A stretch of 64,000 bases of DNA from Sphingomonadaceae bacterium. GTDB lineage: Bacteria > Pseudomonadota > Alphaproteobacteria > Sphingomonadales > Sphingomonadaceae. Within the stretch, counting starts at the first letter, position 1. Each line of letters opens with the position of its first letter. The DNA lies in the NCBI GenBank assembly GCA_030147805.1, contig JASBUR010000017.1:1-64000 (forward strand), given 5' to 3'. The translations under genes and the position numbers were made by a program. The notes under the pieces were generated by a model. That model saw nothing but the letters and a program-made list of their open reading frames with translations, was not told where the DNA came from and did not search any database. Below, piece after piece: positions 13,618-32,790 of the stretch.

Positions 13618-14392
13618 GCGTACTCAATGCTGGTCTGAACCCGCGCATTCCGATGAGCAGCTAGGGAGGGGCTTGGTAACGATCAATCCTTTGCACATAC
13701 GGTCGAGAGCTCAGATTTTCCCGCTGCGGCCCTGATTATAAGAACTAAATTTTGTACAAATTGCGCTCCGGCGGCTGAAAGAGAAGGATGAAAGTGGGTT
13801 AGCGCCTGCCTTGATGGGCGCGTTGAATCTCGTTGCGGGGCGGCGTGGCCATGTAGGTCGATCGGCGATTCTGCAGAACTTCGCAGGTCGGCTCGACGCA
13901 TGAACAGGCGCGCTGATCACCATGAACGTGATCGTCGCTCGATCGGCGGTCGAGCTCCGTCTGACAAAAATATGCAGAGTCCCCGGACAGGTCACGTCCG
14001 CCTGGCACAGATCACGGCTCTGGCACTCAGCGCTCGCAACCGGGCCGTGATATTGGTTTGGCACAACCGCCCGGCGACCTTGGCCGTTGTGGTGTCCTTT
14101 TGCGGCGTCTGTGCCGCAAGGTCGCTCTTCGCGGCGACGTACGCCGCCTTTACTCAGCGCAAGGCGTCATTCTGTGATGCGCCCTGATCTGCACCTTGCA
14201 AAGCACCCGAGCGTGCTCGTCAGTTGTTGTCTAGTTCGCACCGGCTCCACCTTCTTGAGAGTTGGCCCACAGGAAAGCAAAGCGATCTAAAGAACTGGTC
14301 GGCCGCAGCTCAATGTCGCCCAGGGAACGGCCCGATTGAGAGGCGTAGGCGGGCGCGTGCTACAGTTGCAGGACGAAGAGGAGTTGCTGGTC
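13618..14392. other. long gene-free region before luxR
   Basis: About 775 bases. Open frames here show no recognisable domain or convincing start. A 10-bp palindrome TTTGTACAAA lies at 13751-13760. I looked for a lux-box-like dyad and found none I would defend. The region may hold luxR promoter elements. Confidence 0.45.
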
Positions 14393-15142
14393 GTGGACGC
14401 GTTTGATCATGTTCAAAGTTTTGTTGCTCAAGCCAAGCGGGCGGCCACGCTGGCCGACCTCAATACCCTGCTCGGGGAGGTGGGCACCAGCCTTGGGCTC
14501 GACTACTATGCGCTCGCGCACCATGTTGATCTTGGGCGCCCACCGTCGAGTTCGGTTCTTGTGTCAAACTACCCCATCGGCTGGTTCCATACGATCCTTC
14601 GTCAACGCTACTTCGTCGATGACCCGATCTTTGCCGCCGCACAGCACGCCAGCGCCGGTTTCCTTTGGGAAGACATCGGTGCTCTCATTCAGCTCAGCGA
14701 TCGGCAGAAGCGAATTTTCGCTACTGCCGGGCGCCAAGGAATCGGGCCAGGCTTCACCGTGCCCATCACATTGCGTGGCGAGCCGAGCGCATCCTGTTCC
14801 TTTGCGGTCAAACTGGGTCGGCGCTTCCCGCCGGGGCTAGCAGCCGTGGCGCAATCGATCGGCTGGTTCGCTTTCGAGGCGGCGCGGCGCTTGGCGATCG
14901 CGCAGGGTGGACGACCCCGGCGGCGCGTGGCGCCCTTGACGTCGCGCCAGCTCGATTGCGTCGTGCTCATCGCCAAGGGCAAAAGCGACGGCATCATCGG
15001 CGAGCTGCTGGGGCTGAGCCGCCACACCGTCAATAACTACGTCGAAGACGCCAAACGGCGGCACGGCGTCGCGACGCGTCAGCAGCTTCTCATCAGCGCG
15101 CTGTGGGAAGGCCAAGTCACGTTCGAGGACATGTTCGGCTGA
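14393..15142 (+). CDS. LuxR-family quorum-sensing regulator
   Basis: A 249-residue acyl-homoserine-lactone receptor and activator. The N-terminal autoinducer domain shows the expected aromatic and acidic ligand residues in GWFHTILRQRYFVDDPIF and FLWEDI. The C-terminal LuxR helix-turn-helix reads LTSRQLDCVVLIAKGKSD, then LLGLSRHTVNNYVEDAKRR. I prefer the GTG at 14393, 9 bases after an SD-like GAGGAG; a TTG at 14336 is possible. It lies directly before a luxI homologue, so it probably responds to that signal and controls the lasso genes downstream. Confidence 0.9.
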   Translation: MDAFDHVQSFVAQAKRAATLADLNTLLGEVGTSLGLDYYALAHHVDLGRPPSSSVLVSNYPIGWFHTILRQRYFVDDPIFAAAQHASAGFLWEDIGALIQLSDRQKRIFATAGRQGIGPGFTVPITLRGEPSASCSFAVKLGRRFPPGLAAVAQSIGWFAFEAARRLAIAQGGRPRRRVAPLTSRQLDCVVLIAKGKSDGIIGELLGLSRHTVNNYVEDAKRRHGVATRQQLLISALWEGQVTFEDMFG

Positions 15143-15237
15143 AGCCGGACGATCGCACCGCAACCCCCGTGGTTACGCCTATGGGTCTGTCGGGCCAACA
15201 TAACCAATGCTTGGGTCACTCTTCTGAGGAGGACCCC

Positions 15238-15864
15238 ATGGTCAGCGTCGTCACCAATCGCAACCGGCACGGCTTCGAGCCCCTGATCGCCGATATGCAC
15301 CGTGACCGAAAGCGTGTCTTCGTCGATGCCTTGAAGTGGAACGTGCCTGTTGTCGACGACGTCTTCGAGATCGATCAATTTGATACATCGGCGGCCGTCT
15401 ACCTTATCGACGCGGATTTGCGCGCTGCGTGTCACCGTGGCTCGGTGCGCCTGTTGCCGACGACCGGCCCGCACCTCCTGGGCGAGGTGTTCCCCCACCT
15501 CTGCGCGAGCAGCGTGCCGGTTGGGCCGACGGTCTGGGAGATCACCAGGCTGTGTACCTCGCCTTCTCTAGTAGACCGCACCGCGGCACGCGACGTGCGG
15601 CGGCGGGTCTCGATCGCAATGATCGAGTTCGCACTGCTCTATGGCCTGGACCGCCTCGTTTTCGTTACGCACGCGGCTTGGGTGCCAGAGATCATCGCGA
15701 TCGGCTGGGACATCGAGCCGCTCGGCTTGCCGCAGCGCGTCGGCGATGGCGTGACGGCGCTCGCCATCAACGTCACGCCGGCAACGCTCGCGCTGCTGCG
15801 CGACAAGTGGGGAATCGCGGAACCGCTGCTCTGCCACGATCTCCGCGCCGCCGAGGCCGCTTGA
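15238..15864 (+). CDS. LuxI-family acyl-homoserine-lactone synthase
   Basis: A 208-residue synthase that would make an AHL from S-adenosylmethionine and an acyl-ACP or acyl-CoA. The invariant residues fall at almost the canonical positions: R24, F28, W34, D46, D49 (in DQFD), R71, F85, E101 and R104 (in WEITR). The ATG at 15238 has an SD-like GAGGAGGA 4 bases before it, better than an in-frame GTG at 15103 inside luxR. It sits 95 bases after luxR and 7 bases before the dioxygenase gene, so it is likely transcribed with the lasso genes. Confidence 0.93.
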   Translation: MVSVVTNRNRHGFEPLIADMHRDRKRVFVDALKWNVPVVDDVFEIDQFDTSAAVYLIDADLRAACHRGSVRLLPTTGPHLLGEVFPHLCASSVPVGPTVWEITRLCTSPSLVDRTAARDVRRRVSIAMIEFALLYGLDRLVFVTHAAWVPEIIAIGWDIEPLGLPQRVGDGVTALAINVTPATLALLRDKWGIAEPLLCHDLRAAEAA

Positions 15865-15871
15865 GGCAGCA

Positions 15872-16729
15872 ATGCCAGGCATCAACCCCGACGCCTGCGT
15901 AGCCATGCTCGGCGCGCAAGGCTATGCGATCATGCGCAATGTGGTGCCACGGGCCGACATTGCCCGGCTCGGTCACGCGCTTGAACCGCATTTCGCCGCT
16001 ACGCCCTTCTGCCAAGGCGACTTTTACGGTTGGCGTACCAAACGCTTCCACGGGCTGCTGAAACGGGCGGCCGAGACGGCGGGCCTCATCGAGCATCCAC
16101 TGGCACTTGGCACCGCCGAGCGCCTGTTGCTGCCCTTCTGCGACAACATCCAACTCAACCTGACTCAGGCGCTCGAAATACACCCGGGCGAGCTGGCGCA
16201 GGCGCCGCACCGCGACGAGGACATGTGGCAGGGGACGAAGGGCGACATTGAATATCTGCTCAACGTGATGTGGCCGCTGAATTGCTACACTGCGGCGAAT
16301 GGCGCGACCCGCCTGTGGCCCGCGCCTGACCGTGGCGTGCCGGGCGCGATGGTGACGGCTACCATGGCGCCCGGCGATGCGCTGCTCTTTCTCGGCTCGA
16401 CGCTTCACGGGGCGGGCGCCAACCGATCGCCCACGCCCCGGCGCGGGGTCCTTATCAGTTATTGTCTCGGCTGGTTGAAGCCCTACGAGAATCAGTGGCT
16501 CACCTATCCGCCCGCGGTAGCGAAAACGTTTCCCCCGACGCTCGCTGCGCTTGTCGGCTATCGCCAGCATCGCCCCAACCTCGGGAACGTTGATGGCGGC
16601 TGCCCGTCGGCGTTGCTTGCCGAGGCCTCGCCGGCCTGCCGCCCCGCGGTTGATGCGCTGCGCCCCGAGCAGGCGGCCGCACTTCGCGAATATCGCACGC
16701 GCATTGCCGGCGAGACAGGCGATGCGTGA
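15872..16729 (+). CDS. PhyH-type Fe(II)/2-oxoglutarate dioxygenase in the lasso operon
   Basis: A 285-residue phytanoyl-CoA-hydroxylase-like oxygenase. The iron ligands are visible as H113 and D115 in APHRDEDMW and the distal H179 in STLHGAGANR, with a nearby Arg pair at 190-191 suited to the 2-oxoglutarate carboxylate. It starts 7 bases after luxI and overlaps the next gene by 8 bases, so it is firmly inside the operon. Some lasso pathways use such enzymes to hydroxylate an Asp in the core; here likely targets are Asp, Pro or Phe of the precursor, but the substrate is inference. Action on the AHL or another small molecule is an alternative. Confidence 0.85.
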   Translation: MPGINPDACVAMLGAQGYAIMRNVVPRADIARLGHALEPHFAATPFCQGDFYGWRTKRFHGLLKRAAETAGLIEHPLALGTAERLLLPFCDNIQLNLTQALEIHPGELAQAPHRDEDMWQGTKGDIEYLLNVMWPLNCYTAANGATRLWPAPDRGVPGAMVTATMAPGDALLFLGSTLHGAGANRSPTPRRGVLISYCLGWLKPYENQWLTYPPAVAKTFPPTLAALVGYRQHRPNLGNVDGGCPSALLAEASPACRPAVDALRPEQAAALREYRTRIAGETGDA

Positions 16730-17402
16730 TGCCCGTGCCGAGCGTCGGCACGACGGCGTCTATGCCTCGATCCGGGCGATGATTGTGCGGCACGAACTGC
16801 CGGCTCACCATCACATCCGTGTTGAAACCTTGGCAGACGGCTTGCGCGTCAGCAACACACCGGTGCGCGAGGCGCTCATCCGCCTGGCAGCCGAGCGCCT
16901 TATCGAAGAAATTCCGAACGCGGGCTTCTTCACCAAGCCGCTCGATGAAGGCGAACTGCGCGAGCTGCTCCGGCTTCTCGATGCGCTCATCGACTGGTGC
17001 CTAAGTCTAGCGAGGCCGGAAAATGGGGTGCCGGGGCCTTCAAAGCCGCCGCGTTTGTTCGAGCTGGCGACAGCATTGCCGGCTGCTGGGGCACTGGAAC
17101 TGGCCGATGCGCTCTACCTTCATATACCTAGCCAATGGGGCGGTCGCGATACTGTCCGCATGGTCGACAACCTAGCGGCCCGGACCTTCTATCTGCGGCT
17201 GACGGACGCCAAACATGTGAGCGAGGTAGCTGGCACGATCGCCCACTTGTGCCGCCTCTATGGAGCATTGGACATCGCGGCGCTGCGGCTGGCGCTTGCT
17301 GACTTCCACCGAGCCCAAATCGCTCGGCTCTCCGATATTGTTCGGCTGATCGAGCAGGCCGACGGCGGAAACGGCGGAGTACGCTCTCGCGACAGAATAT
17401 AG
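16722..17402 (+). CDS. GntR-family transcriptional regulator
   Basis: A 226-residue regulator. The N-terminal winged helix contains VETLADGLRVSNTPVREALIRLAAERL, the standard GntR signature, and a helical effector domain of about 140 residues follows. Its ATG lies 8 bases inside the dioxygenase gene. Five to ten bases after its stop a perfect 14-bp palindrome occurs in front of the lasso B gene, a good candidate for its operator. The effector is unknown; the lasso peptide, its linear product or a metabolite are all possible. Confidence 0.88.
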   Translation: MRDARAERRHDGVYASIRAMIVRHELPAHHHIRVETLADGLRVSNTPVREALIRLAAERLIEEIPNAGFFTKPLDEGELRELLRLLDALIDWCLSLARPENGVPGPSKPPRLFELATALPAAGALELADALYLHIPSQWGGRDTVRMVDNLAARTFYLRLTDAKHVSEVAGTIAHLCRLYGALDIAALRLALADFHRAQIARLSDIVRLIEQADGGNGGVRSRDRI

Positions 17403-17476: not shown

Positions 17477-18202
17477 ATGACCAAGCCAACCGCTCCGCCG
17501 TATCTCCTGCGCCACAATGTCTACGCTGCGCTTGTCGACGGGATCTTCGTCTTCCTCGATGTCGCGGCCGATCGCTATAGCTGCCTCGAGCGACGCCATA
17601 CCGCGATGGTGGCACGAGCCCTCGGGCTCCAGGTAATCCACGCGCCCGGCGGGACGTCGGCTACCGGCGTCGAGATGGCCAGCATCCTTACCGACCTGGA
17701 GGCGAACGGAATCTTGACGCGCGAGCCGGAGCTCGGCCGGCCGGCGCGGCTCATGGAAAAGCCTGCCGCACTGCGCGAGGTCTACGCTGCCACGGTCGAG
17801 ACGCCGCGGCGCGTCGGCGCGCTCGATGTCGCGCGCTTTGCTAAGGCGTTGCTCATCACCAAGCTGCTGCAGCGCTGGGCGCCTTTCCAGTGGACCGTGG
17901 CGCGCGTCGCCCGGCGGCGCGCCGCCTGCGCGCATCGAGCGGTCATCGACGAGACGCGGATTACAGAGGTGATCGAACTGTATCGATCATTGAAGCCGCT
18001 CGCGGTTACGGTTCGCGATGAATGTCTGTTCAATGCGCTGCTATGCATCGAATTCCTGGCCAGCTACCGCATCTACCCGAGCTGGCACTTTGGCGTTCGG
18101 CTCAACCCCTTCTACGCCCATTGCTGGGTGCAAACGGGCGAGGCCGTCTACGACGACTTCGCTGACACGGTCGGGCAGAACCAACCGATCATGGCAGTGT
18201 GA
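17477..18202 (+). CDS. lasso peptide B protein: RRE domain fused to leader protease
   Basis: A 241-residue maturation enzyme. Residues about 8-90 form a PqqD-like recognition element (LRHNVYAALVDGIFVFLDV) that grips the precursor leader. Residues about 110-241 are the transglutaminase-like cysteine protease with C183 in RDECLFNAL, H215 in FYAHCWVQ and Asp in VYDD (226-227). It would cut the leader after position -1 and hand the core to the cyclase. Single-chain B proteins of this type are typical of proteobacterial lasso loci. The ATG has an SD-like CGGGAG. It lies 3 bases before the cyclase gene, upstream of it rather than downstream as in the usual A-C-B order. Confidence 0.92.
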   Translation: MTKPTAPPYLLRHNVYAALVDGIFVFLDVAADRYSCLERRHTAMVARALGLQVIHAPGGTSATGVEMASILTDLEANGILTREPELGRPARLMEKPAALREVYAATVETPRRVGALDVARFAKALLITKLLQRWAPFQWTVARVARRRAACAHRAVIDETRITEVIELYRSLKPLAVTVRDECLFNALLCIEFLASYRIYPSWHFGVRLNPFYAHCWVQTGEAVYDDFADTVGQNQPIMAV

Positions 18203-18205
18203 GTC

Positions 18206-20047
18206 ATGATGTACCGCTACATGGCGCTGAAGTGGGATCGGCGCGATATGTCGGCAGCGCAGGTAGCCGCTGCGATTGCTGCGGCCCTCAAGCGCGTTTC
18301 GCCGCATGCTTGGACCACCTCGCATGTCGCGCCGGGCCTTCAAGTGATGGACGCTGGGGCAGCCTCGGGTCGCATGCGGACGACCAGCGTCGGCACCCGC
18401 GGCGTCATTCTCGGCCAGCTGTTTCCGCGGCTCAGCAGCGCCGCAGTGCCACAGGTCAGCGAACTGGATGACAATGAGGCCGAGCGATGCTGGGTAAGCG
18501 GGGCGCAGCACCTCGTCGACGCCTACTGGGGCCGGTACGTTGCGATCCTCCACGATCCATCAGGCGACCGGTGCCTCATCCTGCGTGATCCGACCGGTGC
18601 TCTGCCTTGCTTCGTCACACATCACGCCGGCGTCGACATCTATTTTTCCGACATGGAGGATGCCGCCCGCCTGCCGTTCCTCCCGTTCTCGATCAACTGG
18701 GACTTCGTCCGCGCTAACATCATGCTGCCGATGTACCAGAAGATCATCACCGGGCTGAACGAAGTCTCCGAGGTGCTCCCGGCCGAATGTCTCGAGATAG
18801 CGAGCGGTGTCCGCAGCTGTCGCTTCCTGTGGGATCCCTACGCCATCGCCGCTTCGGGTATCACAGAAGATCCGCAAGCCGCTGCGCGTGAGCTTCGAGG
18901 CGTGGTGCGGGCGACGATCGCTACGCTGGCCGGTGGCTACGACCGCGTCGTTCACAACCTCGGCGGACTCGATTCCTCCATCGCGCTTGCATGTTTGACG
19001 GATGCGCCAGCCCGCCCTGAAATCACCGCCATCACGCATTTCACGCCGACGCCGCGGGGCGATGAGCGCGCCTATACGCGTGCCATGGCCCGCCACGCGG
19101 ATGTGCCCCTGATCGAGGCCGAACTCGATGCCGCTCGAGCCGACGTGCGCCGCATCTTCGCTTCGAACCGGCTGGCGCGTCCGCACGGCTTCTTCGATTG
19201 CCTTGGCTTGAACGGCCATGTGCTCGAGACCGCCGACGCTGTCGGCGCCCAGGCGATATTCTACGGGGTGGGCGGCGACCAGGTATTCTTCCAACCCCCG
19301 CTCAATATGGCGGCGCTCGACCATGTAAAGGCGCACGGCTTCGGACGCCGGTCGATTGCGGTCGCGCTCGAGGCCTCGCGCTATGGGCGATGCCGGGTCG
19401 CCGACACGCTTGCCGCGATGTGGCGCGAGCGCATCCGGCCTGAGCCCTGTTACCCCTATGTAAGCGCCGCGTTGTTCCGCCGGCGGCGGCTGCCGCTCGT
19501 CGAGGAGACGGTCACCGAGGCGGCTGGCTATGAGTCGCTACTCCACCCGCTGCTGCGCCCGGCTGACGACATGTCGAAGGGCAAATATCTGCATATCCTC
19601 ATGTCGGCGTTTTTCTCGATCGAGCACTACGACCATTGGGACACGGCCTACACCGCAGAGCGGGTTCATCTCTTCCTCGCGCAGCCGATCATCGAGGCGT
19701 GCCTCCGCATACCGACCTGGGTCCTCACCTACCGAGGTATCGATCGCGGGCTCGCGCGAAGGGCCTTTGCTGGCGACCTCCCGCCAATGATCTCCGCTCG
19801 GCTCAGCAAGAACGGACCCGATGATTACTATGGCGATCTCTACCGCCGCAATGTCGACGCCATCCGCCCGGTACTGGTCGGCGGGCAACTGGTCCGCGAG
19901 GGCATCCTCAAGGCTGGCGCCGTCGAACGCGCCCTTGGGGCCGCTGACCACAGCACTTACGCACATCCGCCGCACCTTCTCGGCCATTTCGCGACCGAGG
20001 CATGGATCGAGCGGTGGCGGCAGCGACCGTCAATAATCCCACTATAA
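18206..20047 (+). CDS. lasso peptide C protein: asparagine-synthetase-like macrolactam cyclase
   Basis: A 613-residue ATP-dependent cyclase that would adenylate the ring Asp and join it to the N-terminus of the core. The N-terminal half is a glutaminase-like domain without the catalytic Cys, as in other lasso cyclases. The PP-loop near residue 250 reads HNLGGLDSS, so the first Ser of the usual SGGLDSS is Leu, which is worth noting. Later parts include GVGGDQVFF and DDMSKGKYLH, typical of the synthetase fold. It is followed after 80 bases by precursor A1. Confidence 0.92.
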   Translation: MMYRYMALKWDRRDMSAAQVAAAIAAALKRVSPHAWTTSHVAPGLQVMDAGAASGRMRTTSVGTRGVILGQLFPRLSSAAVPQVSELDDNEAERCWVSGAQHLVDAYWGRYVAILHDPSGDRCLILRDPTGALPCFVTHHAGVDIYFSDMEDAARLPFLPFSINWDFVRANIMLPMYQKIITGLNEVSEVLPAECLEIASGVRSCRFLWDPYAIAASGITEDPQAAARELRGVVRATIATLAGGYDRVVHNLGGLDSSIALACLTDAPARPEITAITHFTPTPRGDERAYTRAMARHADVPLIEAELDAARADVRRIFASNRLARPHGFFDCLGLNGHVLETADAVGAQAIFYGVGGDQVFFQPPLNMAALDHVKAHGFGRRSIAVALEASRYGRCRVADTLAAMWRERIRPEPCYPYVSAALFRRRRLPLVEETVTEAAGYESLLHPLLRPADDMSKGKYLHILMSAFFSIEHYDHWDTAYTAERVHLFLAQPIIEACLRIPTWVLTYRGIDRGLARRAFAGDLPPMISARLSKNGPDDYYGDLYRRNVDAIRPVLVGGQLVREGILKAGAVERALGAADHSTYAHPPHLLGHFATEAWIERWRQRPSIIPL

Positions 20048-20070: not shown

Positions 20071-20080
20071 CGTTAGCGTG
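20071..20080 (+). promoter_or_regulatory. shared upstream element of precursor A1
   Basis: CGTTAGCGTG occurs 47 bases before the A1 start, and the same ten bases occur 45 bases before A2 (22424-22433). The intervening sequences differ, so this may be a common promoter or operator element. The sequence does not fit a clear sigma-70 or ECF consensus. Confidence 0.35.
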
Positions 20081-20127
20081 ACCAGGCCGGACATAGCCGG
20101 CAGCTCCTGAAACGAAAGGTCACGACC

Positions 20128-20214
20128 ATGATCATTCTCGGCAAAGCCAGCGAAGCGACCAAGGGTGCGATCGAGGGCTTCCCCGTCGACAGCCTGACGA
20201 CGCGCCTCGACTAG
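20128..20214 (+). CDS. lasso peptide precursor A1 (28 aa)
   Basis: The ATG at 20128 follows an SD-like GAAAGG by 8 bases, and an in-frame stop at 20074 with no usual start codon between fixes this start. The leader is only 12 residues, MIILGKASEATK, with the conserved Thr at position -2. The core is GAIEGFPVDSLTTRLD: Gly1, a 9-residue ring closed on Asp9, then a 7-residue loop and tail. Leader and ring layout resemble astexin-type sphingomonad lasso peptides, where the leader end also reads LGKA followed by Thr at -2. A typical leader is longer and has a Pro-containing recognition part, which is missing here. A strong terminator follows. Confidence 0.85.
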   Translation: MIILGKASEATKGAIEGFPVDSLTTRLD

Positions 20215-20222
20215 GCGTCGCC

Positions 20223-20250
20223 GGACCGGCGGGCGCGTGCCCGCCGGTCC
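20223..20250. terminator. terminator between A1 and the isopeptidase gene
   Basis: Twelve-base perfect arms (20223-20234 and 20239-20250) around a GCGT loop, followed by TTCAATCTT on the plus strand. It can end the plus-strand lasso operon, and the stem may also stop the minus-strand isopeptidase transcript, which ends at 20252. Confidence 0.8.
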
Positions 20251-20251
20251 T

Positions 20252-22348
20252 TCAATCTTCGGCCGACCCTCCGCCAGCGCGCCAACGGACATATTGCTCG
20301 GCCTTGGCCGGATCGGGATCGACGGCCCCCGTCAACCAGAAGGCAAACCAGTCAAGATTTCGGGTCGCGGCCTCGCGCATCAGCCGCGGCTCGGTCAAAT
20401 TGTGTCCGGTGCGGGGATAGATGACGAACTCGCTCGGCGCACCGCGACGGCGCGCCGCTTTGACGAACGAGGCAAGTGCCGGCGCGACGCTTCGGGCGCC
20501 GGCCTCAGCGAGGATCGCCGTTGATCCGGACGTCAGCGAAAGGTCGGCCGAAAGCCGGGCGTAATGCGCCGGGTCTCCTTCGGGCGGCCCGCCGTAGATC
20601 CGGTCATGGACCGTGCGATTGAGGGTTTCTGGCATGAGATCATAGGCGAGTTGGGCACTCGGAATGCCTTCGCTGAGACTGGCGGCTCGAAAGCGATTGG
20701 TGCGCGCCACGAGCAGCGCGGCGAGCCAGGTGCCATGGCTGTGCCCGATGATGCCGAGCTTATCCCGGTCGGCGATGCCTTCCTCGATCAGCGCATCGAT
20801 GCCGCGCTCGATATCGTCAAGCGGCTCGCCGTCGATCCTCGATGGTGTCAAAAAGCTTCGACCATAGCCGGCGGTGCCGCGGTAGTTGGGGATGAACACC
20901 GCGATGCCGCGCGAGGCGAGCGCCGCGAGCGGGTGCGGCCACAGCGCAAAGCCGCCTTCGAATGCATCGGTCATCGGCATCGCTGGCCCACCGTGTACAT
21001 AGGTAACGAGCGGCCACGGTTGCGCCCTGCCGCGCGGCTGCAGCAGCCAACCATGAACTTGCGTTCCGTCCCGGCCGCTCCATGTCAGTGGACGCACTTC
21101 AGGCACGACCCGGTTGCCAAGGGGAGCGTTCAGCGTCGTGAGGGCGCGACAACGACCGGCGACCGACAAATAGAGCTCGGGCGGCCGGGCCAGACTCTCG
21201 GATACGAATGCGATTGCCCGCCCGTCGGCGCTGATCGAGAACCGGTCGGCGTCCCCCGTCAAACCCCGGCAGAGCGCGACCGGCCGGACCTTCCCCGCTT
21301 CATCGATCTGGTCGAGCTGGCGGCGGCCGCTGACGGCTCGCGCGATGAAGGTTCCTCCTGGCCTCGCCGTAAAGGCACCGCTCACGTCGGCAAAGGGACT
21401 CACAGCCCCGATGGCCCGCCAAACCATGTCGTCCCGCGCAGCTGCGCCTGCTTGGGGGTCGATGGCAGCAAGGACCGGGAAATGAGGATCATTCCAGAGG
21501 TCGTCGACGATGGTGCGCCGAACGAGCATCCGCTCGCCCTGCCACTCGCCGCCCGTGTAGCTGACGATCCGGCCGTCAGCGCGGGCGTGCGCCTCAGCAA
21601 CGATGGTCAACCGGTCGGGGCCAGCTTCATATACGGCGAGGCTGGCTGAATAGGGATTGCGGCGCCGTAGGTCGGTGCGTGGCCGGAAGGAGACCGATAG
21701 TCGGTCACCCCGCGGCGACCAGTGCGCTGAATAAACGCTCCCCGGAACCGCGATGCGTGCCGCGCGCGCGACGCCGTTCGGCTTTATCCAGACTTCGCTC
21801 TCAGCATCGGACCAAGGCTCGAAATCCGCCGTAAGGAAGCTCATGATCGTGAGGCTGCGCATGTCGGCAATGAGACCGGCCGGACTGTCTCGCAGCTTGT
21901 CGTAAAAGCTCTTCGATGGCGGCGCCGCGGTTACGAAGGCAAGGGACTGGCCATCGGCGGCAAAGGTGAAGCGCGCGATCGGCAGCTCGGCGCGGGTGTG
22001 CTTGGTCACCTGTCCGCTTTGCACGTCGAACGACAGGACCTGGGAGATGCCATCGACGTCGGCCAGGAACGCCAGCCGTTGCCCCGTCGATAGCCAGGCG
22101 AAGGCGCGCCCCTGCGCGACTGCATGTGGAAGTGCGAACCCCTTCGTGGCACCGACAGGACCGACGAAGGTCTGACGGACGGTTCGATTCTCGCTGATCG
22201 ACCGACGTTCGGCGACATAGGCGAGAAGGCGGGCGTCCGGCGATAGCGCGACTTCCGCGAACCGTTGAAGCGCGAAGTAATCGTCCACGTCGAACGGTGG
22301 CGCAACGGCTGTCGATGCGGATGCGATCGATGGAGAGACGCTAAGCAT
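20252..22348 (-). CDS. S9 prolyl-oligopeptidase-like lasso isopeptidase
   Basis: A protein of about 698 residues from ATG 22348, with a signal-like start (VSPSIASASTA). Residues 30-420 are a WD-like beta propeller (VDDYFALQRFAEVALSPDARLLAYVAE opens it in part). The C-terminal alpha/beta-hydrolase has the nucleophile S537 in GHSHGTW and H649 in TGHNL. Such enzymes next to lasso genes open the ring isopeptide bond. Where the catalytic Asp is expected, about 30 residues before the His, I read AEAGARSVAP with no Asp, so activity is uncertain. Upstream in-frame ATGs at 22480 and 22486 would place its N-terminus antisense to precursor A2. Confidence 0.85.
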   Translation of the reverse strand: MLSVSPSIASASTAVAPPFDVDDYFALQRFAEVALSPDARLLAYVAERRSISENRTVRQTFVGPVGATKGFALPHAVAQGRAFAWLSTGQRLAFLADVDGISQVLSFDVQSGQVTKHTRAELPIARFTFAADGQSLAFVTAAPPSKSFYDKLRDSPAGLIADMRSLTIMSFLTADFEPWSDAESEVWIKPNGVARAARIAVPGSVYSAHWSPRGDRLSVSFRPRTDLRRRNPYSASLAVYEAGPDRLTIVAEAHARADGRIVSYTGGEWQGERMLVRRTIVDDLWNDPHFPVLAAIDPQAGAAARDDMVWRAIGAVSPFADVSGAFTARPGGTFIARAVSGRRQLDQIDEAGKVRPVALCRGLTGDADRFSISADGRAIAFVSESLARPPELYLSVAGRCRALTTLNAPLGNRVVPEVRPLTWSGRDGTQVHGWLLQPRGRAQPWPLVTYVHGGPAMPMTDAFEGGFALWPHPLAALASRGIAVFIPNYRGTAGYGRSFLTPSRIDGEPLDDIERGIDALIEEGIADRDKLGIIGHSHGTWLAALLVARTNRFRAASLSEGIPSAQLAYDLMPETLNRTVHDRIYGGPPEGDPAHYARLSADLSLTSGSTAILAEAGARSVAPALASFVKAARRRGAPSEFVIYPRTGHNLTEPRLMREAATRNLDWFAFWLTGAVDPDPAKAEQYVRWRAGGGSAED

Positions 22349-22423
22349 CGTCCCGAAGGCGACCGCCAGCCAGCGCTGGCCGGTGATATTGCGCTTATAT
22401 CCGACGCCGGCGAGGAACCCAGC

Positions 22424-22433
22424 CGTTAGCGTG
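22424..22433 (+). promoter_or_regulatory. shared upstream element of precursor A2
   Basis: CGTTAGCGTG, identical to the element before A1, lies 45 bases before the A2 start. It falls inside the 5' part of a longer possible isopeptidase frame on the other strand, so conservation here is unlikely to be due to protein coding. Confidence 0.35.
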
Positions 22434-22478
22434 GAGACACCGCCAGCGAAGCGGCGTGTCACTCGAAAGGTAGCAATC

Positions 22479-22565
22479 ATGATCATGCTCGGCAAAGTCA
22501 GTGAAGCGACAAAAGGCCCGATCGAAGGGTTCCCCGTCGACAGCCTGACGCAGCGGATGGATTGA
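22479..22565 (+). CDS. lasso peptide precursor A2 (28 aa)
   Basis: A second precursor parallel to A1, with the same SD-like GAAAGG 8 bases before the ATG. The leader MIMLGKVSEATK differs from A1 at two of 12 positions. The core is GPIEGFPVDSLTQRMD, with Gly1 and Asp9 kept and three changes (P2 for A, Q13 for T, M15 for L). It lies on the plus strand between two minus-strand genes, beyond the terminator after A1, so it needs its own promoter. The frame stays open to a GTG at 22383, but the shared SD supports the short form. It was found by reading; its size would escape most gene callers. Confidence 0.82.
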   Translation: MIMLGKVSEATKGPIEGFPVDSLTQRMD

Positions 22566-22572
22566 TCCGCCC

Positions 22573-22608
22573 GGCCCGGCGAACCGGCGTGCGCCGATCC
22601 GCCGGGCC
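22573..22608. terminator. terminator after precursor A2
   Basis: Nine-base arms GGCCCGGCG (22573-22581) and CGCCGGGCC (22600-22608) enclose a shorter inner stem, followed by TTGTCCTC. It starts 7 bases after the A2 stop, and it can also end the TonB-receptor transcript arriving from the other side. Confidence 0.72.
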
Positions 22609-22623: not shown

Positions 22624-25338
22624 CTACCACCGCTTGGTCACCTGGAGCGCGACGAAGCGCCCGAGCGGGCTCGCATTCGTCGGGTCGTAGCCGAAGCGCC
22701 CGCCCAAAGGATCGGTGCCGAGCAGCGGTGGATCCTCGTCAAGAACGTTCTGAACGCTCAGCGCGAAGCGGGTATTCGAGAGAAGCCTGCTATCCCCAGT
22801 GTCGTAGCCAACGCTAAGGTCGACGGTCGTCCATGCTGCGACCGCCCTCGCTGGAGTCGTGCGATCGTCGCGGTAGCCGCCGACGTGATTGACGAAGATT
22901 GCGGCGGTAGCGCTGCTTCCTGCCCATGCCAAGCCGCCGCGCAGGCGCAGGTCGGCGGGGTTGAAGATCGTATCGACGACGTCGATTACCGGCGAGGTCG
23001 GGATGATCTGTCGCTCGTACGAAAGCACATGATTGCCATCGAGTGTCGCTTTCAGATCGCCGCCAGCCACTGCTGTCCGATATGCGACGCGGAAATCGAG
23101 GCCGCGGGTGACGTCGCTGGCCTGATTGCGCAGGCGGTTGTCGAAGATGGCGTCCTCGTCGCCCGGAGCCGCCCATCGAGCGCCCGCCAGGTTGAAGAAG
23201 CTCCCGGCGGCGAGAGCGTCGGCGAAGATGTTTTGGGCGCGCGCCAGAGGCGGGTCGCGGGTAACGGCGGCGGCGAACGCGGGGTTGGTGAGGAAGAGCG
23301 CCGCATTGCCGCTCGGCACGCCGATGCGTCCGTCATAGTCGATGTCATAGTAGGTGCCGCTCAACGTGAGCGTACCTGGCCCCATTGGCTGATCGACGTC
23401 GAAACCGGCGCTCCAGGTCGTCGCCTCCTCCGGCTGCAGATCACGGTTGGCGCGCGAGTCGGTGAGCACAACCGAAGTGCCGCCCGGCGATGTTGGGTCG
23501 GGCAGGATGAACACCGACGCACCCGAGAAGGTCGAGCCGAGATCGGCCAGGTTTGGCGCGTTGAACGAGGTGCCATAGGAGGACCGCAATCGAACCCCGT
23601 CGAGCGGGGACCAGAGCGCGCCGACCTTGGGGTTGAAGGTCTGGCCAAAGCGGCTGAAGTCTTCATAGCGGCCGGCGAGCGATAGCTCGAGGCGCCGGAC
23701 CCCTGGCACACTCGCTGCCGGCCCGATGACCGGCACGAAGAGCTCGCCGTAAAGCGCGTCGACGCCGCGGGCGTCGCGCGCCGAGAGGCGACTCGTTGTG
23801 CGATTGCGTGAGCTGAACCGTTCGCCGCGGTGGCTGGCGCCGATCGCCAACCGCGCCGGCCCGGCGGGAAGGTCAATGAGTGGTCCGTTCAGGAGGCCCT
23901 CGATCGTCCATATCTCCGAATCATTGCCGGTAACGGCGGGGCTGAAGAGCGTGCGTGCCTGATCTTCGGCCACGTTGAAGAAGTCGCCCGCGATAGCGGC
24001 GGACCAGTCGGCGCCGAGATCGATGTCTGCGGTAGCCGCAAGCCCGAACTGCTCGCTGGTCGCCCGCGTCAGGTTGGTGTTGCGTGGGGTTAACGAAGTC
24101 GTCGCGGTCCGACGCGAGGTGCGATGCCCGTAAAGGCCATGCATGCGAAGACCGATCGCCGAACTCAGCTGCTGCGACAGGGTAGCGATGACGCTGTGTC
24201 GGCGCTGGTCCGGCAGGATATCGTTCGGGCGCAAGGCGGCGTCGGCAAAATCTCGCTCTTCGACGCTTAGGGCGTCGCGGTCGAAATAATCATAGGCGAG
24301 AAGCGCTCCGCCGCCTGTCCAGGCGGTGCCGGCGGTCACCCCGGTGCGAAATTCATCGAGCCGGCCTTCCGTTGCTGCGCCGTAGCGCACGAAGGTCTCC
24401 ACACCGTCGAAGTCGTCGCGCAGGCGAAAGTTGATGACGCCGCCGATCGCATCGGCGCCATAGATCGCCGAGGCGCCGTCGGTCACCACCTCGACGCGCT
24501 CGATGGCGTTCAAGGGCAGGATCGAGATGTCGACAAAGTCGCCGAGTCCTCCCGAGGGAGCCAGGCGCCGGCCGTTCAGGAGCACGAGCGTTGAGCCTGA
24601 GCCGAGGCCCCGCAGGTTCACGCCGGTACCGCCGCTTTGGTTGAAGCCGGTCGCCCGGTCATTGACGAGGCCGACCGTCTCGGCGGTCGACCCGCCGCCG
24701 AAGTTCTGCGGCAGGCGATCGACGAATTCCTCGACGGAGGCGACGCCCGCGGCGCGGATATCGGCGCGGCTATAGACCTGGGTAGGCGAGCTTTCGGGAG
24801 CGATGCCGCGAATGAGCGTTCCGGTCACAATGATCGTCTCATCGTCGTCGCTAGTGGCCGCGGCGGTGCGGCCCATCACGGCAGGCTCATCGAGCTCAGG
24901 CAGGGCGGCGCTGTCGGGTACTTGCGGTGCGGCGAGTGGGGCATAGGCGAGGCGGGGCGAGGGGCTTGCCTCATTGATCGCCGCGCTCGGCACACGGCGG
25001 CGCAACGCGATGATACCATCGCTGCCGCGCACGATCTCGAGACCGGTGCCCTCGATGAGGCGCGCCAGTGCCTGGTTGCGATCATAGGTTCCAACGAGGG
25101 GCCGGCTGGTGATCGCGTTCAGCCCATCATAGGGGAACAGCACCTTCACGCCGGCTTGTCGGGCATAGGCATCGAGTGCCGCGCCGACCGACTGCGCCGG
25201 GATGTTGAACGTTACCGCCTGTGCCGCGGTCGGTGCGGCGGCGAGCATCGAGCCCGCAAGCAGCACCGCGTACCACAACCTCGCAAGGCGGCGTGGCGAC
25301 CGCCTATTCCGGTCACAAAATTCCGTTGCGTAGACCAT
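22624..25338 (-). CDS. STN-domain TonB-dependent receptor (transducer type)
   Basis: A 904-residue outer-membrane receptor. A signal peptide ends near AAQA (residue 41). An STN signalling domain follows at about 42-115 (FNIPAQSVGAALDAYARQAGV), then a linker, the plug domain (VEVVTDGASAIYGADAIGGVINF) and a beta-barrel ending in the aromatic-terminal QVTKRW. The STN domain marks receptors that signal through FecR to an ECF sigma factor, and both are encoded next. In lasso loci such receptors import the lasso peptide; here the substrate is inferred from context. An SD-like CGGAG precedes the ATG directly. Confidence 0.93.
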   Translation of the reverse strand: MVYATEFCDRNRRSPRRLARLWYAVLLAGSMLAAAPTAAQAVTFNIPAQSVGAALDAYARQAGVKVLFPYDGLNAITSRPLVGTYDRNQALARLIEGTGLEIVRGSDGIIALRRRVPSAAINEASPSPRLAYAPLAAPQVPDSAALPELDEPAVMGRTAAATSDDDETIIVTGTLIRGIAPESSPTQVYSRADIRAAGVASVEEFVDRLPQNFGGGSTAETVGLVNDRATGFNQSGGTGVNLRGLGSGSTLVLLNGRRLAPSGGLGDFVDISILPLNAIERVEVVTDGASAIYGADAIGGVINFRLRDDFDGVETFVRYGAATEGRLDEFRTGVTAGTAWTGGGALLAYDYFDRDALSVEERDFADAALRPNDILPDQRRHSVIATLSQQLSSAIGLRMHGLYGHRTSRRTATTSLTPRNTNLTRATSEQFGLAATADIDLGADWSAAIAGDFFNVAEDQARTLFSPAVTGNDSEIWTIEGLLNGPLIDLPAGPARLAIGASHRGERFSSRNRTTSRLSARDARGVDALYGELFVPVIGPAASVPGVRRLELSLAGRYEDFSRFGQTFNPKVGALWSPLDGVRLRSSYGTSFNAPNLADLGSTFSGASVFILPDPTSPGGTSVVLTDSRANRDLQPEEATTWSAGFDVDQPMGPGTLTLSGTYYDIDYDGRIGVPSGNAALFLTNPAFAAAVTRDPPLARAQNIFADALAAGSFFNLAGARWAAPGDEDAIFDNRLRNQASDVTRGLDFRVAYRTAVAGGDLKATLDGNHVLSYERQIIPTSPVIDVVDTIFNPADLRLRGGLAWAGSSATAAIFVNHVGGYRDDRTTPARAVAAWTTVDLSVGYDTGDSRLLSNTRFALSVQNVLDEDPPLLGTDPLGGRFGYDPTNASPLGRFVALQVTKRW

Positions 25339-25450: not shown

Positions 25451-26476
25451 CTAGCGGGGCTCGGCCCGGTGCAGGCGGACGGTCTTGTCGTCGAGACGCT
25501 CGACCCGCACGGGCAGCGCGGCCGCCATCGCAGCCAGAACGGCATCGACGTCGGTGGCCGGAAAATGCCCGCCGACCTTCAACTGGCGGATACTGTCGTC
25601 GGCAAAGCTGACTTCGATATCGGTATAACGATCAAGCTCACTGATAATGGTCTCGAGCGGCTCATCCTTGAATGCGAGCATACCCCGGCGCCAAGCCAGA
25701 TCGCGATCGATCGCCTCGTTGTCCAGTTCGACGACCGAAGACTGCTGTCCGGTGATCTCGGCGCGTCCACCGACGGCAAGCGCGATCGGCGGCACGTCGG
25801 GAAGCAAATGTTCGAGGATTGGCAGCCGGCGATGCGCGACCTCGACGCGTCCTTGCGTAACGATGACCTCGACGTCGCCGGCACGCCGGCGCACGTTGAA
25901 GGCGGTGCCCACCGCGCGCACCGCAGTGCCGTCCGACGTAACGATGAAGGGGCGCGTGCGATCATGCGCGACCTGGAAGAACGCCTCACCTCGCGTCAGC
26001 GCGAGCCGGCGTGCATCGCCGGAGAAATCGACCTTCAATTCACTGTCGGTGTTGAGTTCGACCGTCGACCCATCAGCAAGGGTCAGCGTCTGGCGCGCGC
26101 CGACATCGGTTGCGTAGGTGCGTGTGCCGCTTGCCGGCATCACCGCCCAAATGAGCGTTGCGGCAAGCGCGGTCGCAGCGGCCAGCAGCGCGCGCCCGCG
26201 ACGTGTACGCCTGGGTTGGGACCTCGCCCAGCGCGCAGTGATGTCAGGGTCGGGCGCCGTCGTCGCCGCGCAGCGAAGATGAGCCAGATCGTCGAACCGG
26301 TGCCAGTCGCGCTGCAGCCGGTCAAAAGCGGCACGCCGATTCGGACTACCGGCGATCCAGCGCTCGAATTCGGCCAGATCCTTGGAAGACAAATTGTCGT
26401 CGTCGAGACGAACGAGCCATTCGCTCGCCTCGTCCTCGACCGAAGGTGGTCGCTCGTAGGGACTGACCTTGCTCAT
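25451..26476 (-). CDS. FecR-family anti-sigma regulator
   Basis: A 341-residue inner-membrane signal transducer. The N-terminal cytoplasmic part (EASEWLVRLDDDNLSSKDLAEFERW) is the DUF4880/anti-sigma region. A single membrane helix lies near residues 97-114 (LLAAATALAATLIWAVM). The FecR domain follows (GARQTLTLADGSTVELNTDS) and a C-terminal part interacts with STN domains. It lies 112 bases upstream of the receptor on the same strand. The expected chain is receptor occupancy to FecR to release or activation of the ECF sigma at 27245. Confidence 0.92.
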   Translation of the reverse strand: MSKVSPYERPPSVEDEASEWLVRLDDDNLSSKDLAEFERWIAGSPNRRAAFDRLQRDWHRFDDLAHLRCAATTAPDPDITARWARSQPRRTRRGRALLAAATALAATLIWAVMPASGTRTYATDVGARQTLTLADGSTVELNTDSELKVDFSGDARRLALTRGEAFFQVAHDRTRPFIVTSDGTAVRAVGTAFNVRRRAGDVEVIVTQGRVEVAHRRLPILEHLLPDVPPIALAVGGRAEITGQQSSVVELDNEAIDRDLAWRRGMLAFKDEPLETIISELDRYTDIEVSFADDSIRQLKVGGHFPATDVDAVLAAMAAALPVRVERLDDKTVRLHRAEPR

Positions 26477-27244: not shown

Positions 27245-27787
27245 GTGAGGCAAGGACGTGCCGTGTTTGCAGCAGTCTCCCGCGCTCAAGCCGGTGAACT
27301 ACTAACCTTCTTCCAGAGACACGAAGCCGCGCTGCTTCGCTACGCGATCCGGCTGACGCGTTCCCGCGACCTCGCTGAGGATCTAGTTCAGGAGACATTC
27401 GCAAAGCTGCTCAAGCACGGCTTGACCGGCTTGCACTCGCCGAAGGGGTTCCTGTTCGCGACCGCGCATAACCTCGCAATGGACTACCACAGGCATCGCG
27501 CGGCGCTAGCGATCGAGAATCTGGCGGATCTCGAGACACTCCAGCTATGCGACGCCAGAGCCAATCCACAAGCGCAAGCGATCGCTCGCGAGGGCCTGAG
27601 GTCACTTTGCAAAGTGTTGGAAGAACTTCCCACCCAGCAGAGACGCGTCTTCACGCTCAGAAAGGTTTACAATCTGTCGCACGCGGAAATTGCCGACGAA
27701 CTCGGCATCACGATCAGTACGGCCCAGAAGCACCTCACCAAGGCGCTTGCCCACGTCAGCGCCCAGATGCGCGATATCGAAGACTGA
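27245..27787 (+). CDS. ECF (FecI-like) RNA polymerase sigma factor
   Basis: A protein of about 180 residues with sigma-70 region 2 (FFQRHEAALLRYAIRLTRSRDLAEDLVQETFAKLL), the DNA-melting part (FLFATAHNLAMDYHRH) and region 4 (LPTQQRRVFTLRKVYNLSHAEIADELGITISTAQKHLTKAL). It fits FecI-type sigma factors that work with FecR and an STN receptor. The start is uncertain: GTG 27245, or GTG 27263 with an AAGGA nearby. Likely targets are the receptor and isopeptidase genes, giving positive feedback on uptake. Confidence 0.9.
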   Translation: MRQGRAVFAAVSRAQAGELLTFFQRHEAALLRYAIRLTRSRDLAEDLVQETFAKLLKHGLTGLHSPKGFLFATAHNLAMDYHRHRAALAIENLADLETLQLCDARANPQAQAIAREGLRSLCKVLEELPTQQRRVFTLRKVYNLSHAEIADELGITISTAQKHLTKALAHVSAQMRDIED

Positions 27788-28333: not shown

Positions 28334-28339
28334 GTGGCG

Positions 28340-28951
28340 ATGTGGCGCTGCAGCTCAACGCGTTCCAGAGTGAAGCCCATTGGGCTAGCGGCCTCAATGA
28401 TCGCCGCTGCTTTTAGCACGCCTGCTTACGCGACGGTGTTCGAAATCGCTGACGATGGCATCGTACTTGTTCACGATGCGCCTGTCCTCCGGGCAAGCAA
28501 GGCGGCCGACCTGCGCGCCGCCTTGCCGCGGCTCCTGACGCCTCCAGCCAGTCTGCAGGCCAGCTTCGACGCAGCTTCGGGCCATTACGCGCTATCGCGA
28601 GCGCTGGTCGAAGCGGTGGCGTGGACGGAGTCACGGTTTCAACCCAGCGCTCGTTCACCCGTCGGCGCGATCGGCGTCATGCAGCTCATGCCCGCTACCG
28701 CGCGCGACCTCGGAGTCGACCCGCGGCTTCCCGACCAGAACATCCGCGGCGGAACCGCCTATTTGCGAATGCTGCTCGACCGCTATGCCGGCGACATCGT
28801 GAAGGCGCTCGCCGCTTACAACGCAGGTCCGGGCGCCGTTGACCGGTACGGCGGCGTGCCGCCGTACGCTGAGACGCGAGCCTATGTTGCGCGGATCCTT
28901 GGGCGGCTGGCGGCCAATTCCGTCGACACCAAAAAGGAAATCCGCCGATGA
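28340..28951 (+). CDS. virB1: VirB1-like lytic transglycosylase
   Basis: A 203-residue periplasmic murein hydrolase that locally opens peptidoglycan for T4SS assembly. A signal peptide ends near AYA (residue 32). The SLT fold shows the catalytic Glu in AWTESRF, then GVMQLMPATA and the C-terminal AYNAGPGAVDRYG. The ATG at 28340 has SD-like GGAGG 5 bases before it. Its stop overlaps the virB2 start (ATGA). It opens a compact operon of at least 12 genes in which most neighbours overlap by 4 bases. Confidence 0.9.
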   Translation: MWRCSSTRSRVKPIGLAASMIAAAFSTPAYATVFEIADDGIVLVHDAPVLRASKAADLRAALPRLLTPPASLQASFDAASGHYALSRALVEAVAWTESRFQPSARSPVGAIGVMQLMPATARDLGVDPRLPDQNIRGGTAYLRMLLDRYAGDIVKALAAYNAGPGAVDRYGGVPPYAETRAYVARILGRLAANSVDTKKEIRR

Positions 28952-29319
28952 TCCTTGAACGCCTGAAGCCCTACGCTGCCCTCGTCGAGGCCGACGCTGC
29001 CGTGCCCCGTTTGGCTCGCTCGGCCGCCGCTGCAGCAGCGCTCGCCCTCAGCTGCGAGCCCGCACTCGCTCAGTCGATCTCGCCCGATCCACAAGGCTCG
29101 GGCGTCATCGCGGGCGCCCTCAACTGGCTCACCGGCACGCTGCTGGGCAATGTTGCGACCGGCGTCGCCATTCTGGCGGTGGCAATCATCGCGATCCTGC
29201 TCATGACCGGGCGCATGGAGTGGGGCCGCGCTGCACTCGTCGTCATCGGCATCTTCATCCTGTTCGGCGCCGTGTCGATCGTAACGGGCATCCGCAGCCT
29301 CGCAGGCGCCGCCGCGTGA
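28948..29319 (+). CDS. virB2: VirB2-like pilin subunit
   Basis: A 123-residue pilin precursor with a long signal sequence ending near ALAQ and two hydrophobic helices (VATGVAILAVAIIAILLMTG and AALVVIGIFILFGAVSIVTGI), the usual VirB2/TrbC layout. It would form the conjugative pilus. Overlaps of 4 bases on both sides tie it into the operon. Confidence 0.85.
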   Translation: MILERLKPYAALVEADAAVPRLARSAAAAAALALSCEPALAQSISPDPQGSGVIAGALNWLTGTLLGNVATGVAILAVAIIAILLMTGRMEWGRAALVVIGIFILFGAVSIVTGIRSLAGAAA

Positions 29320-29615
29320 CCGGCGCTACAACGATCGGCCTGCAGCGCCAGCCGCTGTTCGCAGCGCTCACTCGCCCGCAGATGCTCTGGGGCGTGACAT
29401 ACCCTTATTTCGTCGCCAACCTCATCGTCACGACGGAAGCGTTCCTTCTCGCCAAATCGTTCGCAGCTCTCGCACTCTTCGGGATTATTCACGCGCTTGG
29501 CTACGCCGCATGCCTGAAAGAGCCGCGGCGCTTTGATCTCCTGCTCACTCGTCTCGCACGCGCCCGGCGCGTGAAGAATGCCGCATTGTGGGGCGGCAAC
29601 AGCTACCGGCCATGA
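29316..29615 (+). CDS. virB3: VirB3-like inner-membrane T4SS protein
   Basis: A 99-residue membrane protein with the family opening QRQPLFAALTRPQMLWGV and two membrane segments. It starts with GTG overlapping the virB2 stop and ends overlapping virB4. VirB3 sits beside the VirB4 ATPase at the inner-membrane complex. Confidence 0.87.
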   Translation: MTGATTIGLQRQPLFAALTRPQMLWGVTYPYFVANLIVTTEAFLLAKSFAALALFGIIHALGYAACLKEPRRFDLLLTRLARARRVKNAALWGGNSYRP

Positions 29616-32023: not shown

Positions 32024-32790
32024 CCCCGCGTTTAAAAGTCTTAGCTGCCACAGCGGGCATCGCCTCGCTCGTCGCCATCGCCGCCGTGCCGGCAAGCGCC
32101 GCGCTCGGAGTGTCGGTCGTCAAAGACCCTTGGAACATCGCGCAGACGACGGCGACCGTGCAGAAGCTCGCCGACCAGTATCGCACAATGGTCGACCACT
32201 TGGCCGAGGCGCGCGCCCAGGTCTCGGCGCTCACTTCGCATTCCGGTGCCGGCGATCTCCTGAACGGTCCGGCCGAACGCGCCGCGCGGCGTTACCTGCC
32301 TGACGCCTGGGCGGCCGCCACCGACGTCCGCGACGCTACCTCGGCCGTCAACGGAGCCGCCTACGCCACCCGCGGACTCATAGACGACGCCACCGCGCTC
32401 TATCGGCCCGCCAGTGCCGCTGAAATCGACCCCCATCGCCCCGACAGCGACGAGGGTCGGCGCTACGAGAAGGAGGTCGGCACCGCGCTTGCCGTGCTTG
32501 CCGGCAGCCAGGTGATGCTCGACGCGACCGCCAAACGTCGCGACGCCTACGAGGGACTGATGGCCCGGATCGAGACCGCGCCCGACGCCAAGGCGGCAGC
32601 TGACCTCAACAACCGGCTCGCCGCGGAGAATGGGCTGACGCAAAACGAACTGGTGCGCGCGACCGCGATGCAGGCGCATGTCGCGGCGGTACAGGAGATG
32701 CGGCTGGCGGCGGCGAGGGCGGACTCTGCGCGCGCCGCGATCCGCACGCGCGTCAACCTATCCGGCGGCACCTATACGCCGGCGAGCTGA
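32020..32790 (+). CDS. VirB5/TrbJ-like pilus-tip protein
   Basis: A 256-residue secreted protein with a signal peptide ending PASAA (residue about 28). The mature part is helical, starting VVKDPWNIAQTTATVQKLADQYR, the pattern of TrbJ/VirB5 proteins that sit at the pilus tip. Position between virB4 and virB6 supports the call. The start overlaps the virB4 stop by 4 bases. Confidence 0.8.
   Translation: MTPRLKVLAATAGIASLVAIAAVPASAALGVSVVKDPWNIAQTTATVQKLADQYRTMVDHLAEARAQVSALTSHSGAGDLLNGPAERAARRYLPDAWAAATDVRDATSAVNGAAYATRGLIDDATALYRPASAAEIDPHRPDSDEGRRYEKEVGTALAVLAGSQVMLDATAKRRDAYEGLMARIETAPDAKAAADLNNRLAAENGLTQNELVRATAMQAHVAAVQEMRLAAARADSARAAIRTRVNLSGGTYTPAS

Follow-up and report, generated by a model that had tools for sequence, protein, structure and literature searches.

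Can a leader of only 12 residues direct the maturation of a natural lasso peptide? This question is raised by two very small open reading frames in a 64,000-nucleotide stretch of DNA from a Sphingomonadaceae bacterium, referred to here as the window. A 2026 review gives 20-40 residues as the normal length of lasso leaders (PMC13352647), and the generic leader motif YxxPxL, comprising Tyr-17, Pro-14 and Leu-12, is recognized by the B1 protein (PMC10368454). The lasso cluster of the window and its surroundings contain the following features.

From 14336: LuxR gene.
From 15103: LuxI gene (AHL synthase).
From 15872: PhyH gene.
16551-17402, plus strand: GntR-type regulator directly upstream of B (PF00392), syntenic in relatives.
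17477-18202, plus strand: B, a fused protein with an N-terminal RRE and a C-terminal transglutaminase-like leader peptidase (PF13471, 6.7e-15; NF033537 lasso_biosyn_B2, above cut-off; AF2 model).
18206-20047, plus strand: C, an asparagine-synthetase-like lasso cyclase (PF00733, 2.9e-14, above cut-off; NF033561 and NF033535, below cut-off).
20111-20127, plus strand: Shine-Dalgarno region of A1, with CGAAAGG some 8 bases ahead of the ATG; AAAGG has the same position before every ATG of the closest clade.
20128-20214, plus strand: lasso precursor A1, 28 amino acids, leader MIILGKASEATK (12 residues) and core GAIEGFPVDSLTTRLD (16 residues; predicted ring Gly1-Asp9).
20219-20252, plus strand: terminator-like G+C-rich hairpin directly 3' of the A1 stop (RNA fold, -32.7 kcal/mol with flanks).
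20252-22348, minus strand: E, a lasso isopeptidase of the S9/Atxe2 type (NF033523 lasso_peptidase, 5.5e-42, below the curated cut-off; PF00326).
22479-22565, plus strand: lasso precursor A2, 28 amino acids, leader MIMLGKVSEATK (12 residues) and core GPIEGFPVDSLTQRMD (16 residues).
22572-22608, plus strand: terminator-like G+C-rich hairpin 3' of the A2 stop (RNA fold, -29.2 kcal/mol with flanks).
22624-25338, minus strand: TonB-dependent receptor (PF00593, PF07715), at the same place in relatives.
25451-26476, minus strand: FecR-like anti-sigma regulator (PF04773).
27245-27787, plus strand: ECF sigma factor (PF04542, PF08281).

Judged by its genes, the cluster is complete, with B, C, the isopeptidase E, the TonB receptor, FecR and the ECF sigma factor, and the combination of an S9-type isopeptidase with the last three is that of the isopeptidase-type proteobacterial clusters. 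The start of E is uncertain, a signal peptide probably being encoded ahead of the start given here, and the 5' portion of the long E frame overlaps A2 (22479-22565) in antisense orientation. In relatives both precursors are located between C and E; in the window, A2 occupies the gap from E to the TonB receptor gene. The LuxR and LuxI (AHL synthase) genes adjoin the cluster at 14336-15864 and are likewise found beside clusters L168, L171, L190 and L191, a recurrence which suggests quorum control of lasso production. Genes for VirB-type secretion (SLT, TrbC/VirB2, VirB3, VirB4 and VirB5-like) occupy 28334-32790, right after the ECF sigma gene, so that a plasmid or an integrative element may carry the cluster. 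A search of a plasmid collection with B yielded only a plasmid of Asticcacaulis excentricus (31%) and a partial Novosphingobium match.

The original prediction described A1 and A2 as 28-residue precursors, and its coordinates and translations were reproduced. Both translations share the leader end LGK, Thr(-2), Gly1 and Asp9, and thus carry the precursor hallmarks Thr(-2), a small residue 1 and Asp or Glu at positions 7-9. The benenodin model NF033522 (lasso_benenodin, 43 positions) was matched weakly, with 14.8 bits (E 0.02) for A1 and 13.2 bits (E 0.06) for A2, both short of the curated cut-off of 33 bits. These matches span model positions 11/12-26, that of A1 starting at position 12 of 43, and the conserved leader motif starts at the same point of the model. 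With a leader scoring matrix of 12-13 positions, whose training set consisted in part of the same sequences that it scored, A1 and A2 reached about 40 bits, compared to about 10 or lower for nearly all unrelated short open reading frames in about 110 loci.

The reading as lasso precursors was borne out by another 33 precursors, found in 18 other clusters. With the window included, 35 short-leader precursors were found in 19 loci, with Met at -12 in 34 of them and at -13 in one. Their hosts are Sphingomonadaceae, two other families of the Sphingomonadales, and Marinicaulis and Kiloniellales bins. The closest B protein (47% identity, genome G236) belongs to a cluster with 12-residue leaders, as do the B proteins at 43-45% identity in four metagenome bins (Marinicaulis, a Sphingomonadales bin, an alphaproteobacterial bin and Kiloniellaceae); precursors from these closest relatives include MIDLGKVSEETK/GVIDEPSTDFNGLKPE and MIALGKISETTK/GGAPIEAVDELDQRP (leader/core). 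More distant clusters with leaders of this length are present in the two other Sphingomonadales families and in one Kiloniellales bin. The gene order GntR-B-C-A(-A)-E-TonB is common to six clusters from different genera and orders, the window being an exception in having A2 beyond E. Within the short leaders, Ile-11 is found in 24 of 35, Leu-9 in 30 and Gly-8 in all 35, with Gly(-8) and Thr(-2) being invariant partly through selection, because the leader motif formed part of the search. Across 398 genomes from the family, a degenerate DNA leader pattern hit the A2 gene of the window and the nearest relative only. When the whole class was searched with a B profile built from the closest clade, a single additional genome came up, the precursors of which have long leaders.

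Several of these clusters show features of their own. In L168, L169, L170, L186 and L191 the predicted cores begin with Ile, Val, Leu, Phe or Trp and not with Gly (for example MIDLGKVSVATK/IKKPVGVPDHLL, the core continuing beyond the residues given, and MIDLGKASEVTK/FIVGVPGEADNTLSLS), which is unusual for isopeptidase-type proteobacterial lasso peptides. One genome region (L169:3953-13021) contains two B, two C and two E-like genes together with at least five 12-residue-leader precursors in tandem, whose cores are nearly identical. Genome G052 carries two separate, divergent lasso clusters (L034:9397 and 9656; L037:7903), both with 12-residue leaders and with the precursor upstream of B.

Is part of the leader missing? 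From the same lineage we compared a non-redundant set of 83 longer leaders, which are 16-34 residues long when counted from the nearest ATG (median 21). Their information content was 1.8 bits at -12, 2.8 at -11, 2.9 at -9, 3.9 at -8, 2.75 at -6, 2.2 at -5 and 3.1 at -2. Outward of -12 it amounted to 0.94 bits at -13 and to 0.3-0.7 bits further out, where it mostly reflects acidic or polar composition. Leaders of 12 residues cannot hold the Tyr(-17) and Pro(-14) of the YxxPxL systems, and measured against this generic picture the predicted absence of a Pro-containing RRE-binding part in A1 and A2 is correct. As the loss of a part it is not supported, since none of the 83 longer relatives has YxxP and a Pro anywhere upstream of -12 occurs in only 14. 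With nearly all information of the longer relatives located at -12 to -1, the 12-mer represents the complete conserved signal, and no essential leader part appears to be missing from it. It follows that B need not recognize less than the B proteins of the relatives do, since the whole conserved leader motif lies within the 12-mer.

The B protein itself is predicted to retain the RRE fold. Confidence in its AF2 model is intermediate (mean pLDDT 68, pTM 0.50), and in Foldseek comparisons the N-terminal part of the model had its best PDB matches in the leader-bound TfuB1 (6jx3) and TbiB1 (5v1u, 5v1v), with probabilities of 0.96-0.99 and E values of only about 0.1. At the sequence level, the RRE match to TfuB1 reached only E 0.26. 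Short- and long-leader B proteins alike retain the RRE core residues Leu27, Asp28 and Tyr34. Residues separating the two sets of B proteins were found only at scattered positions, mostly outside the RRE, and are confounded by ancestry.

These data are very probably explained by A1 and A2 being genuine lasso precursors, the leader of which is trimmed to the smallest form that contains the whole recognition signal. Translation would start at the ATG at -12, and the initiator Met would fill the hydrophobic site taken by Leu, Val or Ile(-12) in the longer relatives. In the resulting leader, Met-Ile-x-Leu-Gly-x-Ala/Val-Ser-x-x-Thr-Lys, the RRE of the fused B protein would gain a short strand through residues from about -12 to -9, with Ile(-11) to Leu(-9) forming the strand, and Gly(-8)...Thr(-2) would hold the bond that precedes residue 1 in place in the B peptidase. 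C would then close a ring between the Gly1 amine and Asp9, and the two resulting lasso peptides would each have a 9-residue ring and a 7-residue tail; the TonB receptor would import them, and E would linearize them after import. Start sites, conservation, synteny and the presence of RRE, peptidase, cyclase and isopeptidase are read from the sequence in this explanation; the binding mode, the role of Met(-12), the ring size and the products are what we infer. An Ile after the initiator Met normally shields the Met from methionine aminopeptidase, and position -11 is Ile in most short leaders. In an AF2 model of McjA with McjB, the leader extends the RRE sheet at positions -12, -11 and -10 only, and residues -37 to -13 make no contact (PMC11420955). 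The initiator Met most likely fills the hydrophobic site at -12, which is the furthest-out leader position with a predicted contact to the McjB RRE, and the natural short leaders would end exactly at this contact limit.

The B proteins of this lineage might instead read mainly the core, or depend little on the leader, the 12-mer then being a protease site and not a ligand of the RRE. Such behaviour would agree with the leader-free processing, at reduced efficiency, seen in vitro for fusilassin/fuscanodin (PMC13352647), and with the finding that the last 8 residues of the McjA leader are enough for detectable microcin J25 (PMC11420955). We consider it unlikely, because positions -12 to -8 are conserved in the short leaders at the frequencies given above while the cores vary widely, and because the three RRE core residues are preserved whatever the leader length.

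The preferred reading of a trimmed but complete leader depends on where translation starts. For A1, it had been predicted that an upstream in-frame stop bars a longer leader unless a rare start codon is used, and indeed a TAG lies 17 codons upstream with no ATG, GTG or TTG between it and the ATG. The frame upstream of A2 is open for 66 codons and contains a GTG at -28 (22431), a TTG at -42 and a GTG at -44, so that A2 alone would allow a longer leader. Longer leaders could arise from such GTG/TTG or from non-standard upstream starts, the ATG at -12 being an internal codon as in ordinary benenodin-type precursors; a CTG at -19 in A1 and some longer ATG/GTG/TTG start in 10 of the 34 other precursors would be in line with this. 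However, no ATG, GTG or TTG start is available beyond -13 in 24 of the 35 short-leader precursors, A1 included, and 11 have an in-frame stop 1-5 codons before the ATG, often within the Shine-Dalgarno site, so that no start of any kind would yield more than about 17 residues there. The placement of the Shine-Dalgarno site also fits the ATG at -12: in the closest clade an AAAGGA-type site is found at constant spacing to this ATG, and in several precursors an in-frame TGA overlaps it, the arrangement TGA AAG GAA ... ATG recurring. The longer starts of A2 are not conserved. Its GTG at -28 falls inside the 10-mer CGTTAGCGTG, which occurs exactly twice in the window (20071-20080 and 22424-22433), 46-57 bases before the starts of A1 and A2. 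Since the 10-mer precedes both precursors and is out of frame before A1, a shared non-coding element is likelier than a start; this 10-mer, examined for frequency only, is possibly part of a shared promoter or operator. Finally, the identity between A1 and A2, 82% within the open reading frame, is about 38-40% over the 60-90 bases upstream and 28% over the 60 bases downstream, and the resemblance declines upstream of the Shine-Dalgarno site. Upstream starts are therefore very improbable, and we accept the leader length of 12 residues for A1 and A2 because the relatives, with their 33 further precursors, settle what A2 alone leaves inconclusive.

That the two frames are chance or relic copies, with the true precursor elsewhere in the cluster, is hardly credible: their tiny size and weak NF033522 matches would suit this, but synonymous changes are in excess (8 synonymous and 5 non-synonymous codon differences in the pairwise comparison, with 10 of the 15 base changes at third codon positions), the limits of conservation are sharp, hairpins follow both stops and other clusters hold the same type of open reading frame at the same place. 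Judged by these patterns, there is a high likelihood that A1 and A2 are genes.

In a tree of 60 B domains, a basal group of 24 (support 90/74) contained 17 of the 19 short-leader B proteins. Short leaders were absent from all 28 labelled rows in the classic benenodin/sphingopyxin-type long-leader clade (support 98/97; median leader 21). Leader length was strongly clustered on the tree, requiring 8 changes compared to a mean of about 16-18 after shuffling, and none of 500 shuffles was as low. A1 and A2 probably belong to a deep lineage of alphaproteobacterial lasso clusters; some deep placements on the tree rest on long branches. A single origin of short leaders is not supported: at least four changes are forced on the tree, so that several gains or losses are needed.

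Among known systems, the benenodin/sphingopyxin type (NF033522) is similar to the window cluster in its motif (I/V)(D/E)LGxAS.ET up to the cleavage site and in having a fused B, C, isopeptidase E, a TonB receptor and often several precursors. Its leaders comprise 16-28 residues (with few exceptions; median 21) and include a variable acidic N-terminal extension, which is absent in A1 and A2, and A precedes B, in contrast to the order B-C-A in the window. By gene content, the window cluster is an isopeptidase-type proteobacterial lasso system of the benenodin kind that differs in leader length and gene order. Microcin J25 (McjA/McjB) likewise has a fused B, and only the C-terminus of its leader matters, with predicted contacts from -12 inward (PMC11420955); however, the natural McjA leader has 37 residues, its shortened forms were made in the laboratory and yield less product, and the system is without an isopeptidase. 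Fusilassin, therbactin and other systems with split B (TfuB1, TbiB1) share the RRE fold and a hydrophobic -12 residue with the window, whereas their leaders carry Tyr(-17) and Pro(-14), impossible in a 12-residue leader, and B is fused in the window. The laboratory truncations of McjA suggested in advance that short leaders can work.

Full-text literature searches, whose coverage leaves out most subscription journals, returned no description of a natural 12-residue or otherwise unusually short lasso leader, and a natural lasso class with the leader fixed at 12 is, as far as searched, undescribed. The short-leader genes measure 72-138 nt. The usual gene cut-off of Prodigal is 90 nt (PMC6511847), and the genes are easily missed because 21 of the 35 are at or under this length (17 of them below it). 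On balance, we favour the view that they form a widespread natural lasso class, with the leader fixed at 12, the initiator Met as outermost RRE contact and a length marking the natural lower limit of RRE-dependent leaders, which has stayed largely unannotated since most of its genes do not exceed 90 nt.

A natural minimal recognition signal would thus exist that standard gene finders mostly overlook, at least 18 related clusters being trimmed alike. Owing to this annotation blind spot, clusters that appear to lack a precursor may contain 12-residue-leader genes. The family would provide a natural series of minimal lasso substrates, in which recognition is accessible with synthetic precursors of 27-28 residues and the role of the N-terminal leader residue becomes a sharp question.
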